Shown: piece after piece, positions 12,629-64,000 of the stretch
How the letters are laid out: the number at the start of each line of letters is the position of its first letter
How positions within the stretch are numbered: the first letter of the stretch is position 1
Assembly (NCBI GenBank): GCA_017528825.1
Contig: JAFXOI010000003.1
Location: 1 to 64,000, forward strand
Reading direction: 5' to 3'
DNA: 64,000 nucleotides
DNA from: Elusimicrobiaceae bacterium
Lineage (GTDB): Bacteria; Elusimicrobiota; Elusimicrobia; Elusimicrobiales; Elusimicrobiaceae
Program-made: the position numbers and the translations under genes
Notes under the pieces: model-generated
Seen by the model: only the letters and a program-made list of their open reading frames with translations
Database searches by the model: none
Told to the model about the DNA's origin: nothing

Positions 12629-12647
12629 AATATTTTTATGTTATAAT

Positions 12648-12920
12648 AAAATGACTTGGAGGAAGTAGTAAGGCGCGTACCGTGCTGAAATAAAAATTTA
12701 TCTGTTTTTGGACCGTATGCAGAATACGGGCTTTTTGAGAGAAATCTCAAAAAACCTAGCCGCCAAAAACAGCCGATATAAAGGTACAACGCAAACGGAA
12801 TTGCAAGCCGCATGGGTTGTGCCTAATGTTTACCTGTTCGCACTTGTTGCGGATAGGTAAACTACGGCTGTTAGTTATTAGGTTGCGGCTAGGTAACCTG
12901 ATGCTAACAGCCGTTTTTTG
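12648..12920 (+). ncRNA. structured pilin leader RNA, copy 1 (attenuator-like)
   Basis: The space between the phosphorylase and pilin genes holds an extended -10 (TGTTATAAT, 12639-12647) and a structured leader. Helices seen: P1 12702-12711 with 12763-12772 (10 bp); P2 CCGTAT/ATACGG just inside it; a long hairpin TTTTTGAGA/TCTCAAAAA; P4 12783-12790 with 12816-12823; P5 12828-12835 with 12855-12862; terminator stem 12864-12874 with 12904-12914 followed by six T. A long-range helix joins 12754-12763 to 12885-12894 in the terminator loop. The 5' arm of the terminator (CGGCTGTT, 12865-12872) is also complementary to AACAGCCG at 12768-12775, which overlaps the P1 3' arm. P1+terminator and long-range+antiterminator are thus competing states. 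Not a class I recognise. The open frame from 12817 is not used. Confidence 0.75.
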
Positions 12921-12960
12921 CATTCATTTTCCACAACAGATTTACGCAAAGGAGAATAGT

Positions 12961-14043
12961 ATGCAAAAAAACAAACAAGCGTTTACGCTTATTGAGTTGT
13001 TAGTAGTAGTACTGATTATAGGCGTATTAACTGCCGTAGCACTGCCTATGTATCAGGGCGTGGTAGATAAAAGTCATTGGAGCACTATGCTCCCCGGAGC
13101 CAAGGCCATTAAAGATGCCGAAGAAGCCATTAAAATGAGCAACGGACTATATAGTGCGGATATGCAACATTTAGGTGTTACCATGAATAATGCCGATTTA
13201 CAGTTCCAATTACAAACGATTAATAATGGGGGCGAGGCTAATGTGATTCGAGTGACGAATCCCAGGTTAGCCAATGTACGCTTAGCCAGTTACTTAGATG
13301 AAAACCCGATGATGGGAGGACAGTTACATTGTGAGGCAAAGAGTGGAGATGAACGGGCGGAAAGACTTTGCGGAAAATTACTCATGGGCCAAGACTTAAA
13401 AACAACCTCTGACGGATATATCGCATATTTATTAGACCAAGACATTGATAAAGCCACCTGTGATAATGTGAGCCGCAGTTGGTCTAAGAAACAAACAAAA
13501 TGTTATAAAACGAGACAAGACCGTTGTGAGGCAAACGGTATGCCATATGCAAATGGAGTGTGCGGATATACTAATACCAAAAATGTAACTATTGAAGAAG
13601 ATGGAGTTTGTAGTGCTAACAAGGCAGGTGGTTGCAAGAATGCGGTAATTAATGAGGGAGGAGTATGTCAAGTCAGCGGAACAGGACCTGATGGAGGGTG
13701 CCAATATGCCACGATTAATGCAGGAGGAGAGTGTAAGGGTTCTTGGAATGATCGCGCTTGTTTTTATGCGACTGTCAATAAAGGAGGTGTATGTTCTGGC
13801 TCTTGTGAATATTCTACTATCAATGAAGGCGGCCTTTGTAACGGAGGATGCAAGCATTCTACTATTAACGCAGGAGGAGTTTGCGAGTCAAACTGTTGGA
13901 ACTGTTGTGAAGCCGTTACTTTTAAAAGTGGCAGCAAGTGCATTGCTACTTCATTAGGTACTTGTGATAGATTCACAACTTATGAAGGAACTGCCTGTTG
14001 TGAAGGAGATTATTGCGGTAGTGCACCAAAATGTAAAAGCTAA
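12961..14043 (+). CDS. type IV pilin-like protein with cysteine-rich repeat domain
   Basis: A 360-residue protein with a short leader and prepilin site (QA|FTLIELLVVVLIIGVLTAVALPMYQ), so it should be processed by prepilin peptidase and assembled into a pilus or pseudopilus. Residues about 30-150 look like a normal pilin body. From about residue 185 to the end there are about seven repeats of the pattern C-x-x-[AS]-[TV]-[IV]-N-x-G-G-x-C (for example CQYATINAGGEC, CEYSTINEGGLC). The repeat resembles the TINxGG rungs of beta-helical autotransporter passengers, with flanking cysteines that could form a disulfide ladder (inference). The ATG at 12961 is preferred over an in-frame start at 12817 because AAGGAG lies 7 nt upstream and the long version would overlap the leader. 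Confidence 0.85.
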   Translation: MQKNKQAFTLIELLVVVLIIGVLTAVALPMYQGVVDKSHWSTMLPGAKAIKDAEEAIKMSNGLYSADMQHLGVTMNNADLQFQLQTINNGGEANVIRVTNPRLANVRLASYLDENPMMGGQLHCEAKSGDERAERLCGKLLMGQDLKTTSDGYIAYLLDQDIDKATCDNVSRSWSKKQTKCYKTRQDRCEANGMPYANGVCGYTNTKNVTIEEDGVCSANKAGGCKNAVINEGGVCQVSGTGPDGGCQYATINAGGECKGSWNDRACFYATVNKGGVCSGSCEYSTINEGGLCNGGCKHSTINAGGVCESNCWNCCEAVTFKSGSKCIATSLGTCDRFTTYEGTACCEGDYCGSAPKCKS

Positions 14044-16954: not shown

Positions 16955-17165
16955 AAGACGTAAAGATGTACAATTTGAAGATTATTTGTTGAAGCGTAGG
17001 ATCGCCTACGCCGAGCAAAGGAAGAAATATTTTTCTTTCGGCGCAAGTTTGAGGTCAACAAATAATCGCTTTGTCTTACCCATTTCTTTATTGAGAATTG
17101 GGGAGGCGGCGATTATTTGTTAAAGGTCACCTCAAACTGCTTTTAACAAAGTCGCCGCTTTTTTT
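16955..17165 (+). ncRNA. structured pilin leader RNA, copy 2 (sequence-divergent)
   Basis: Same architecture as the other leaders, built from largely unrelated sequence. P1: 16980-16992 with 17055-17067, 13 bp. P2: GCGTAGG/CCTACGC (16994-17000 with 17005-17011). Long-range helix: AGTTTGAGGT (17046-17055) with ACCTCAAACT (17129-17138). Terminator: GCGGCGA (17106-17112) with TCGCCGC (17152-17158), extended by TGTTAAA/TTTAACA (17118-17124 with 17142-17148), then seven T. The terminator's 5' region GCGATTATTTGTT (17109-17121) is also a perfect 13-bp complement of AACAAATAATCGC (17057-17069), the P1 3' arm. GATTATTTGTT therefore occurs twice (16980, 17111) and both copies compete for one partner. 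The mRNA start codon is 36 nt past the T-run. Confidence 0.78.
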
Positions 17166-17200
17166 GTGCAAATTTGAAAAAATAAAAAAGGAGATTGTAT

Positions 17201-17788
17201 ATGAAAGTAAAAAATCTAAAATGTCATGCTGAGGCGTTGTTGCTCAGCATCTCAACCTTATTAAGAAAACAACGAGATCCTGAGCAAAAGCACCTCAGGA
17301 TGACCCAAAGTGTGGCCACCGTGCGCGGGTTCACTCTTATAGAGTTATTGGTAGTTGTTTTAATTATCGGCATATTATCAGCTATTGCTTTGCCGCAATA
17401 TCGTATGGCAGTGGAAAAAGCGCGCGTTACCGAAGCCCTGCAAAATATCCGCATGCTAGAAGAGCAAGCTAAATTGTATGTGCTGGAAAATGGATTACCA
17501 ACGAACAATAATATAGTGTATTTGAAAGATGTTCTGTCTGTAGAATTATCTGGGGGGGAATGGGATGGTTATGATTATAATACTGATAATTTCAGTTATT
17601 ATGCATATATAACAGCTAATGGCATTGGTATTGAAGTAACTAGACAAGGTCCATACTATTATCAATTTTTTGTAGGTGGAGTAAACAATGTTCATGAGTG
17701 TTTGAATGGTGCTGGTGATGAAATGGGAATAAAAATCTGCCACATGTTAGAAAGTCAAGGATGGACTTATCAGGAAGGTGAATTTTAG
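17201..17788 (+). CDS. type IV pilin-like protein with repeat-derived long leader
   Basis: A 195-residue pilin-like protein whose prepilin cleavage motif (RG|FTLIELLVVVLIIGILSAIALPQY) begins only at residue 44. The preceding leader of about 43 residues is mostly encoded by an imperfect palindromic repeat (17223-17304) inserted in frame; typical leaders in this window are 4-9 residues. After the hydrophobic helix come RMAVEKARVTEALQNIRMLEEQAKLYVLENG and a small C-terminal domain with two cysteines (HECLNG, KICHML) likely forming the usual disulfide loop. Start at 17201 is supported by AAGGAG 8 nt upstream; a TTG two codons earlier is less likely. Confidence 0.85.
   Translation: MKVKNLKCHAEALLLSISTLLRKQRDPEQKHLRMTQSVATVRGFTLIELLVVVLIIGILSAIALPQYRMAVEKARVTEALQNIRMLEEQAKLYVLENGLPTNNNIVYLKDVLSVELSGGEWDGYDYNTDNFSYYAYITANGIGIEVTRQGPYYYQFFVGGVNNVHECLNGAGDEMGIKICHMLESQGWTYQEGEF
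17223..17304 (+). repeat. dispersed palindromic repeat inside a prepilin leader
   Basis: Two linked imperfect palindromes: GTCATGCTGAG...CTCAGCATCTCAA and GATCCTGAGC...CTCAGGATGAC, separated by ACCTTATTAA. Two further copies lie in tandem in the pilin gene at 63331. The element keeps an open frame, so it adds about 27 residues to the leader. Confidence 0.8.
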
Positions 17789-28202: not shown

Positions 28203-28703
28203 TCATTGGAACATTTGACAGACACGTCTGCCACGTTCAGTAGTATGGCTACAGCCAATTTTTCCCGGGTATTCGGAGTGTTCAAGATAAAAGCCAATTT
28301 GAGCATCCCTTTGTTGTGAGCAAGTGGTATAATTATACATGCTTGTTGTTTCGTGAAAAGCAGGGCAGAAAACAAATTCCAACAAACCGGTAACCGTTCC
28401 GCTCAAACGTTGTAGATTGATATAACCCTCTTTGCAACCAAATAACATGTTGATATATAAATCTGGGCAAGTTTTGGTTATATCAATGTCCAATTGTCCT
28501 AAATCTTCGGCATATTTCCCATTTGCCATATAATATACTTCTTGTGCGTCTTTAATACTTTTTAGTGTCGGTATATATGTAGAGATGAGTGCTTTATCCC
28601 GTGCGGTCTGGTATTGCGGCAGCGCCACGGCGGCCAGTATGCCGATGATAAGGACAACGACAAGTAGTTCAATCAATGTAAATGCTTTAGGGTTGTGTTT
28701 CAT
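28203..28703 (-). CDS. type IV pilin-like protein
   Basis: A 166-residue pilin-like protein: leader MKHNPKA, prepilin site A|FTLIELLVVVLIIGILAAVALPQYQ, an alpha-1 helix (KALISTYIPTLKSIKDAQEVYYMANGKYAEDLGQLDI) and a C-terminal domain with several cysteines including IGCSHT and RRVCQMF. The ATG at 28703 has GGAACAGG as ribosome site; an in-frame GTG at 28733 would add ten residues and is not preferred. It follows leader RNA copy 3. Confidence 0.88.
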   Translation of the reverse strand: MKHNPKAFTLIELLVVVLIIGILAAVALPQYQTARDKALISTYIPTLKSIKDAQEVYYMANGKYAEDLGQLDIDITKTCPDLYINMLFGCKEGYINLQRLSGTVTGLLEFVFCPAFHETTSMYNYTTCSQQRDAQIGFYLEHSEYPGKIGCSHTTERGRRVCQMFQ

Positions 28704-28735: not shown

Positions 28736-28958
28736 CAAAAAAAGGCTCCTAAATTTGAACTCTTAGCACAGTGTCCAAAAATAACAGCCGTAGTTTATCG
28801 CAAAGCGATAAACATTCGGTACACAACACTGAGATTATAAGTTTCAGTGTGGTATACCTGATAACGAGCTGTCTTTGGCGTGCTAAGAACCTTGGCAGGT
28901 ACTCCGTCTCTTAAACGGTTCCAAAAACAGATTAAATTTTTACTATTTTACTAGTATA
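28736..28958 (-). ncRNA. structured pilin leader RNA, copy 3
   Basis: Occupies most of the gene-free stretch 28704-29037, on the minus strand. The extended -10 TGTTATACT lies at about 28961-28953. P1: 28930-28921 with 28878-28869 (10 bp including one G-U). Long-range helix: 28888-28880 (GTGCTAAGA as read on the plus strand) with 28769-28761 (TCTTAGCAC), 9 bp. A P4 hairpin with GGTATAC/GTGTACC and an inner CACACTGA/TCAGTGTTG; P5 GTTTATCGC/GCGATAAAC (28813-28805 with 28801-28793); conserved ACGGCTGTTAT (28791-28781). The final hairpin is less perfect (GGCT/AGCC plus an inner six bp) but ends in seven T. P1 3' arm plus flank (ACAGC..CGT) can also pair with ACGGCTGT. Confidence 0.72.
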
Positions 28959-63056: not shown

Positions 63057-63081
63057 GTCATAAATTTGTTATACTAATAGG

Positions 63082-63299
63082 GTAGTATACAATTTCATCT
63101 GTTTTTGGAACCGCATGCAGAATGCGGGTTTGCTTAATTAAGCACTCCGAAACGCCAAAAGCAGTCGTTTTAGGCACCGCATATCCGAGCTGATCCCTTG
63201 GATGTGAGGTGCCGAGTGTTTGTCACCTTTGGGTGGCAAACCACGGCTGTTTGTACAAGGGTAACGTTTCGGAGACTCGAGTATAGCAGCCGTTTTTGT
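63082..63299 (+). ncRNA. structured pilin leader RNA, copy 4
   Basis: With the pgm terminator this fills 63008-63330. Extended -10 TGTTATACT at 63068-63075. P1 63099-63108 with 63155-63164 (one G-U); P2 CCGCAT/ATGCGG; a GCTTAATTAAGC hairpin; long-range helix CTCCGAAACG (63145-63154) with CGTTTCGGAG (63265-63274), 10 bp; P4 GGCACC/GGTGCC (63173-63178 with 63208-63213) with inner CATATCC/GGATGTG; P5 63218-63227 with 63232-63241; terminator ACGGCTG (63243-63249) with CAGCCGT (63287-63293) and T-run. ACGGCTG can also pair with CAGTCGT (63162-63168) next to P1. Confidence 0.78.
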
Positions 63300-63330: not shown

Positions 63331-64000
63331 ATGAAACACAACAAACATAGTATATGTCATGGCCAATGTCACGTTCCCAGTCATTCCCGAATGTTTTTAT
63401 CGGGAATCTCAACCTTATTAAACAACACGAAAGAGGCCAAGGTCCTGAGCAACAACATCTCAGGACGACAGCATTGTAATTACCACAAAAAACACGTCAT
63501 GCTGAGATGTTTTTGCTCAGCATCTCAACAACTTAATAAGGCTGAGGCCCTGAACAAAGACACTTTCAGGGCGACACATTGTGTCGGTTTTACCCTCATT
63601 GAACTACTCGTCGTCGTCCTTATCATTGGCATTTTATCCGCCATTGCCCTGCCGCAATATACCAAAGCAGTACAAAAAGCTGATTTAGCTAAAATGCAAG
63701 TATTACTTAAATCTGTCGTTACCGCACAACAAGCGTATTATTTAGAGAATGGTAGTTATGCCACCACGTTAGACGAATTGGGTTTAGATTTGCCGGTTAC
63801 CGGTACCTGTAGCGCGCATCTATGGTCGACTGGTAACGGTTATAAAATCGGCCCGGAGGGATTTTGTTTGCAACTACTTACGTTAACCTATGGCTCGGCA
63901 ACTCATACCGTGGCGGTTTCTTTCGGAGCAAAGGCGCAAGGATATGGTCTGACAGGCGATGATGCTCAATACGGGGGTGTAGAATATTTGCTAGAAGACT
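63331..64000 (+). CDS. type IV pilin-like protein with very long repeat-derived leader (3' end outside window)
   Basis: Starts at ATG 63331 (AAAGGAG 10 nt upstream, first codons MKHNKH) and is open to the window edge. The prepilin motif (VG|FTLIELLVVVLIIGILSAIALPQYTKAVQKADLAKMQVLLKSVVTAQQAYYLENGSYATTLDELGLDLP) begins only after about 86 residues. That leader contains two in-frame copies of the palindromic repeat (63380-63470 and 63496-63576). The pilin body carries two cysteines (GTCSAH, GFCLQL). Whether so long a leader still allows processing is unknown. Confidence 0.82.
   Translation, partial: MKHNKHSICHGQCHVPSHSRMFLSGISTLLNNTKEAKVLSNNISGRQHCNYHKKHVMLRCFCSASQQLNKAEALNKDTFRATHCVGFTLIELLVVVLIIGILSAIALPQYTKAVQKADLAKMQVLLKSVVTAQQAYYLENGSYATTLDELGLDLPVTGTCSAHLWSTGNGYKIGPEGFCLQLLTLTYGSATHTVAVSFGAKAQGYGLTGDDAQYGGVEYLLED
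63380..63470 (+). repeat. dispersed palindromic repeat, copy 2
   Basis: GTCATTCCCGA...CGGGAATCTCAA, ACCTTATTAA, then GGTCCTGAG...CTCAGGACGACA; related to 17223-17304, with arm bases changed on both sides (CCCG/CGGG) so that pairing is kept. Confidence 0.75.
63496..63576 (+). repeat. dispersed palindromic repeat, copy 3
   Basis: GTCATGCTGAG...CTCAGCATCTCAA then GCCCTGAA...TTCAGGGCGACA; in tandem with copy 2, 25 nt apart. Confidence 0.78.

Follow-up and report, generated by a model that had tools for sequence, protein, structure and literature searches.

Leader RNAs in front of pilin-like genes

Do the structured leaders that precede four pilin-like genes within 64,000 nucleotides of an Elusimicrobiaceae genome belong to one regulatory RNA, and how could such an RNA act on the genes behind it? 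This stretch (positions 1 to 64,000 of contig JAFXOI010000003.1, hereafter the window) is part of contig C3 in a draft genome of 1.53 Mb (G000). An earlier note, made from its letters alone, had described four attenuator-like leaders, and all four were recovered from the sequence. A GC-rich hairpin followed by a T run lies between promoter and gene in each of them, and across the family through the covariance model R1 described below. The leader reads, in order, an extended -10 element, the conserved motif YACAATTT directly before P1, then P1, P4, P5 and a terminator. P1 (consensus CTGTTTTTGGA/TCCAAARACAG) encloses P2, P3 and a variable segment of about 10 nt, V1, which adjoins the P1 3' arm; V2, the apical loop of the terminator, is the complement of V1. 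Features are listed below with their basis in brackets.

12639-12647, +: extended -10 element TGTTATAAT, leader 1 (sequence)
12690-12919, +: leader RNA 1, P1-P5 and terminator (R1, 163.4 bits, E 1.4e-46)
12702-12711, +: P1 5' arm CTGTTTTTGG, leader 1 (sequence, OFF fold)
12713-12729, +: P2 hairpin CCGTAT/ATACGG, leader 1 (fold)
12732-12753, +: P3 hairpin, leader 1 (fold)
12754-12763, +: V1 hypervariable toehold ACCTAGCCGC, leader 1 (perfect 10-bp complement to V2)
12763-12772, +: P1 3' arm CCAAAAACAG, then CCG, leader 1; its partner switches to the terminator 5' arm (ON and OFF folds)
12783-12823, +: P4 hairpin, leader 1, with palindrome TTGCAA in the apical loop (fold; palindrome excess)
12828-12862, +: P5 hairpin GTTTACC/GGTAAAC, leader 1 (fold)
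12864-12919, +: intrinsic terminator hairpin and T run, leader 1 (sequence, fold)
12885-12894, +: V2 terminator apical loop GCGGCTAGGT, leader 1 (complement of V1)
12927-12939, +: post-terminator imperfect copy of the P1 3' arm, TTTTCCACAACAG, leader 1; putative sink for the P1 5' arm once freed (family-wide test)
12961-14043, +: pilin-like gene (N_methyl) after leader 1 (Pfam PF07963, E 1.2e-7)
16968-17166, +: leader RNA 2, of the compact subtype; only one hairpin separates P1 from the terminator (R1, 44.8 bits over 16968-17163; T run to 17166)
17046-17055, +: V1 AGTTTGAGGT, leader 2 (pairing with V2)
17129-17138, +: V2 ACCTCAAACT, leader 2 (pairing with V1)
17201-17788, +: pilin-like gene after leader 2, with an in-frame palindromic repeat in the prepilin leader (Pfam N_methyl, E 5.5e-7; sequence)
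28737-28942, -: leader RNA 3 (R1, 140.7 bits)
28880-28888, -: V1 TCTTAGCAC, leader 3 (pairing with V2)
28761-28769, -: V2 GTGCTAAGA, leader 3 (pairing with V1)
28203-28703, -: pilin-like gene after leader 3 (Pfam N_methyl, E 2.7e-8)
63067-63075, +: extended -10 element TGTTATACT, leader 4 (sequence)
63087-63297, +: leader RNA 4 (R1, 172 bits)
63145-63154, +: V1 CTCCGAAACG, leader 4 (pairing with V2)
63265-63274, +: V2 CGTTTCGGAG, leader 4 (pairing with V1)
63331-64000, +: pilin-like gene after leader 4, truncated by the window end; in-frame palindromic repeats precede the prepilin cleavage site (Pfam on 63499-63999; frame from sequence)

Extended -10 elements are visible, as in leaders 1 and 4. 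The common order of small hairpins, P4 and P5 that the note had given to all four leaders held in part: leader 2 (at 16955) is compact, with one hairpin instead of two between P1 and the terminator and a P1 (GATTATTTGTTG/CAACAAATAATC) unrelated in sequence to the other P1. Even so, 13 nt of its P1 3' arm match the terminator 5' arm. Family-wide, the extended -10 motif TGnTAnnMT was present in 101 of 166 upstream regions versus 18 in shuffles.

Palindromes were seen at two places. A 6-nt palindrome (TAATTA, TTATAA, TTCGAA, TCATGA or TTGCAA) occurred in 57 of 91 distinct P4 apical loops versus 15.9 in shuffles, and a kissing dimer of leader RNAs is possible. Palindromic repeats (GTCATGCTGAG..., GTCATTCCCGA...) also follow the start codon in frame, ahead of the prepilin cleavage site (17201-17300 and 63331-63499; also at loci L079 and L082), so that they would go with the leader peptide on cleavage.

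The V1:V2 helix is hypervariable and covaries

The long-range pairs of 9-10 bp predicted by the note proved exact in all four leaders. V1 and V2 lie about 110-120 nt apart in one RNA, and across the family they match perfectly by Watson-Crick pairing over 8 nt or more at the expected place in 243 of 254 distinct copies, with mostly different sequences (main set 159/166, later set 57/60, second family of the phylum 27/28). The second family served as a hold-out, and 8-12 bp of V1:V2 were present in those 27 of its 28 copies although the pair is outside the model. As many as 122 distinct V1 sequences were counted in the first 140 clear copies. Within G000, complementarity of V1 to its own V2 averaged 10.4 (G.U allowed) versus 5.8 when copies were mismatched, and the copy's own V2 ranked first in 22 of 23 cases.

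Covariation was measured on a position-anchored alignment (68 of 74 segments of fixed length), the windows being placed without using complementarity. All ten pairs changed on both sides, 88.4% of the cells paired versus 49% in shuffles, and the covariation score reached 0.943 against 0.209 in shuffles and at most 0.264 in slid registers, which bears out the strong covariation that had been read from four copies. The helix is also almost purely Watson-Crick: its best 10-bp register contained 1.4% G.U and 1.0% mismatches, the G.U figure being slightly biased downwards because copies with a match below 8 were omitted from part of the set. In the predicted OFF folds, G.U amounted to 7.7% in P1, 9.7% in P3, 10% in P4/P5 and 17% in the terminator; in P2, which is conserved in sequence, it was 2.4%.

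Distribution of the family and genes downstream

R1 was built from 22 G000 copies with V1 and V2 left unpaired. A search of Elusimicrobiota genomes with this model gave about 46 strong copies in G000 and located the leader in 81 of the 90 genomes from its own family and in 14 genomes of a second family; the remaining 247 of 341 genomes of the phylum gave no leader at E 1e-4, under strict filters and with few candidates scored per genome. The named records bearing it are Elusimicrobiaceae/Elusimicrobiales metagenome-assembled genomes from rumen and gut. Loci L104-L183 were collected with an exact P1/P2 pattern, outside which V1 and V2 fall, and P1/P2 conservation is therefore biased in this set. 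An identical leader fragment was also noticed at two contig ends (G000 C15:1-141 and C16:1-141), indicating that family repeats break the assembly and that copy numbers are approximate.

Against Rfam 15 at gathering cut-offs, the window matched only a tRNA, with neither c-di-GMP-I/II nor T-box hits, in agreement with the earlier failure to see a GEMM core. In E-value mode, three leader copies gave no relevant match, weak ones included. The element was likewise without description in the literature searched, whose coverage leaves out most subscription journals. Carriage by phages was considered and dropped, the exact leader motif being absent from IMG/VR under a strict pattern. The first reading had been staked on covariation and on the absence of a known Rfam family; both analyses were run and neither spoke against it.

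All four downstream genes of the window match the N_methyl motif (Pfam), and in G000 as a whole 40 of 47 leader copies precede pilin-like genes. The four pilin-linked copies first noted are thus accurate for the window, but the genome holds about 46 and other gene classes follow the leader elsewhere. These are DUF4422/GT8 and RgpF glycosyltransferases, polysaccharide pyruvyl transferase and polysaccharide synthesis genes; sulfatase-family membrane enzymes, outer-membrane beta-barrels, Chlam_PMP repeat proteins and lipoproteins; and, among restriction-modification genes, HSDR_N and methylases of the N6_N4 and EcoRI kinds. A PLD/SNF2 protein is encoded behind the leader as well. Switching between pilins, as suggested at first, is accordingly too narrow a role. 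Such gene classes are often phase-varied in other bacteria. To our knowledge, almost no RNA regulation has been described in Elusimicrobiota, to which these data add a widespread RNA family placed before surface-variable and DNA-restriction genes.

Two exclusive folds and a predicted attenuation mechanism

When V1:V2 was forced in the folds inspected, the P1 3' arm paired with the terminator 5' arm, as had been proposed. Two states result, OFF (P1 and terminator) and ON (V1:V2 and antiterminator), which are mutually exclusive in nested folds. Their computed energies differ little: ON minus OFF was +2.6 ± 3.9 kcal/mol for totals near -85 (186 copies), in thermodynamic folds that take no account of tertiary contacts, factors or polymerase speed. 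When the RNA was ended at V2, the antiterminator was the minimum free energy fold in 91% of copies. Being nearly isoenergetic, the switch appears poised, and its outcome would hang on kinetics or on an effector.

A third element, absent from the earlier note, follows the terminator. Within about 55 nt of it, 102 of 186 copies carry a stretch able to pair with the P1 5' arm; this is typically TTTTCCAAARACAG, which repeats the P1 3' arm once more. A complement of the terminator 3' arm was detected there in 53 of 186 (cut-off for both, z below -1.5 against shuffles). Both types occurred together in 12 copies versus 29 expected, and 43 of 186 had neither. Either sink matches a strand that is free only in the ON state. 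With 45 nt of the true downstream sequence, ON minus OFF shifted from +2.6 to -3.2, versus +0.35 with a shuffled tail (93 copies, p 1.5e-12). In these models, the post-terminator sequence is thus predicted to pair with the strand freed by ON and to tip the balance to ON.

We consider it probable that the leaders are previously undescribed cis-acting transcription attenuators of gut Elusimicrobiota, with a V1:V2 toehold insulated between copies. The family, its pairing, covariation, exclusive folds, in silico energetics and gene context are shown by the sequences; promoters, termination and read-through are predictions. We infer that termination and antitermination occur in vivo, in the order given here, and that copies are insulated from one another. 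Early in transcription P1 would close around P2 and P3, leaving V1 single-stranded. V2, emerging at the tip of the future terminator, would pair with this toehold, and branch migration would then bring the P1 3' arm into pairing with the terminator 5' arm, giving an antiterminator that lets the polymerase through (ON). Should P1 persist up to synthesis of the terminator 3' arm, transcription would stop (OFF). After read-through, the post-terminator element may capture the released strand, be it the 5' arm of P1 or the 3' arm of the terminator, and so lock the ON fold before the ribosome-binding site.

An attenuator relying on a translated leader peptide was ruled against, as short ORFs with a Shine-Dalgarno sequence were not enriched (21 of 166 leaders versus 28.9 in shuffles). 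Hfq and ProQ were not found in 13 genomes in which the controls were found. Together, these two results argue for action in cis. Good support for the proposed new cis-regulatory RNA and its antiterminator comes from the lack of an Rfam family, the covariation, the near-isoenergetic exclusive states and the hold-out lineage. The undescribed RNA family, with its transcription-attenuator anatomy and unusual hypervariable antiterminator, is real, and the mechanism is strongly indicated by the in silico models.

A ligand, a protein or chance could act as the effector. A conventional riboswitch, in which a ligand on the P1/P4/P5 junction would stabilise P1 or an alternative fold and V1:V2 would be the expression platform, is compatible with the attenuator explanation, only the effector being different. 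The competition between P1 and antiterminator is typical of riboswitches, and the unpaired linkers around P4 and P5 are conserved, with parts recognisable in the second family. No Rfam riboswitch matches, however, the downstream genes are without a common metabolic theme, and up to about 46 copies per genome are unusual for a metabolite riboswitch; we hold this version possible but lean against it.

It is unlikely that V1:V2 is instead a pseudoknot, the terminator loop kissing the P1 junction while P1 and terminator are both formed, so as to stabilise the OFF state or a protein-binding fold. Covariation is equally expected from such a contact and cannot alone tell it from an antiterminator, and the apical terminator stem, which varies with compensation between copies, does present V2 as a loop. 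Yet this loop has a median of 12 nt for a V1:V2 helix of 10 bp, which would leave little room in a closed hairpin. Moreover, the P1 3' arm matches the terminator 5' arm too, even in the compact subtype, and the sinks match strands freed only by ON.

Relation to known leader RNAs

Like intrinsic-terminator/antiterminator attenuators and transcriptional riboswitches, the leaders form an early helix that can yield its 3' arm to the terminator 5' arm, adopt two exclusive folds and place a T run ahead of the gene. Unlike them, they fall outside Rfam and have no known ligand, their antiterminator nucleus is hypervariable, nearly pure Watson-Crick and different between dozens of copies per genome, and a post-terminator element is predicted to lock the read-through fold. 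T-box leaders are also multi-copy and choose between terminator and antiterminator, but what varies there is the specifier, which reads the tRNA, beside a conserved antiterminator, whereas here the antiterminator pair itself varies. Cyclic di-GMP (GEMM) riboswitches are, similarly, structured leaders before pilin genes, but belong to Rfam families that our leaders do not match. In plasmid antisense systems such as FinP/traJ and CopA/CopT, conserved stems carry variable pairing loops that prevent cross-reaction of related RNAs; these pair in trans, whereas both partners are here in one RNA. The pil1 attenuator of Streptococcus gallolyticus likewise has a premature terminator in the leader of pilus genes, linked to heterogeneous pilus expression; it relies on ribosome movement and on a leader peptide that contains GCAGA repeats (Danne et al. 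2014, PMC3894217). The present leaders differ from it by RNA-RNA pairing, no enriched leader peptide, many copies and many gene types.

Evolution of V1 and V2

V1:V2 differs in almost every non-homologous copy, so that each copy would answer only to itself. How the pair changes is illustrated by L139 and L107, two leaders 99% identical outside V1/V2 and both placed before orthologous HSDR_N genes: one has CAATCGTAGT as its V1 and the other CAGCTAGACT, and V2 has changed to match. The L107 pair had no other occurrence in 90 genomes, which left no donor for gene conversion among them. At a backbone identity of at least 0.90, V1 was retained, with at least 8 positions identical, in 32 of 36 pairs from different genomes versus 1 of 8 within-genome pairs (Fisher p 6e-5), a comparison of few, non-independent pairs whose within-genome members come mostly from G077, a 240-contig assembly, and to which assembly collapse of identical repeats could add bias. 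Over all backbones of G000, similar V1s were not depleted within the genome relative to between genomes. Since the depletion concerns only close pairs, insulation is put forward as a hypothesis. The divergence of V1/V2 between co-resident close copies points to selection against cross-talk in trans, for which these sequence comparisons are evidence and not proof.

The variable segment could alternatively be an address, each V1 or V2 being read by a protein or RNA acting in trans. Hypervariability with many unrelated sequences would suit this, as would the recurrence of some V1 sequences before different genes in different genomes. This recurrence mostly tracks leader relatedness, and an idea of V1 as a small code shared between genes was dropped for that reason; an address would need no perfect complement in the same RNA, and neither Hfq nor ProQ was detected in the 13 genomes, which together make such outside control distinctly improbable. 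Least credible of all is that inverted-repeat template switching keeps V1:V2 complementary at the DNA level with no need of an RNA function: the near absence of G.U, the multi-pair changes between near-identical leaders and the inverted P5 apical loops of close paralogues are in its favour, as is the creation and maintenance of perfect hairpins with coupled changes known from this process (PMC8794818), but it leaves unexplained the fixed position and length in 243 of 254 copies and the conserved P1-P5, promoter, terminator, sinks and gene context.

Template switching between inverted repeats may rather be the mutational route by which V1/V2 change than the reason for which they match. The inverted P5 loops, GAAA versus TTTC/TTCG in close G077 paralogues (L313 and L315; L272 and L308), fit the signature expected of it. 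At L287:1268-1698 (-), two tandem leaders precede an EcoRI-type methylase gene; the second has the same V1 and a V2 that does not fully match, and is perhaps an intermediate of V1/V2 replacement. The rarity of G.U and the coordinated replacement seen between L139 and L107 bear on the origin of compensatory changes in RNA.

Returning to the attenuator explanation, the genes behind the leaders are of kinds typically expressed heterogeneously in bacteria, which suggests independent on/off expression of surface and defence genes. It is quite possible, if a little short of probable, that V1:V2 pairs form a genome-wide, actively diversified set of self-matching RNA "barcodes", both halves being replaced together whenever copies become co-resident, and that dozens of surface and defence genes would then be independently switchable by a common RNA device. 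Nature would in that case provide many insulated RNA strand-displacement switches within a single cell, such as synthetic biology builds by design.

Pilin genes without a leader

About 18 other pilin genes of G000 lack the leader; between TTGAC and the -10 element their promoters hold a run of 8-14 T, with a spacer of 13-18 (L019, L021, L022, L027-L032, L036, L037, L039, L042-L044, L091 and L100). From their promoter sequences, they are candidates for slipped-strand phase variation, which would constitute a second pilin-varying route in this genome.
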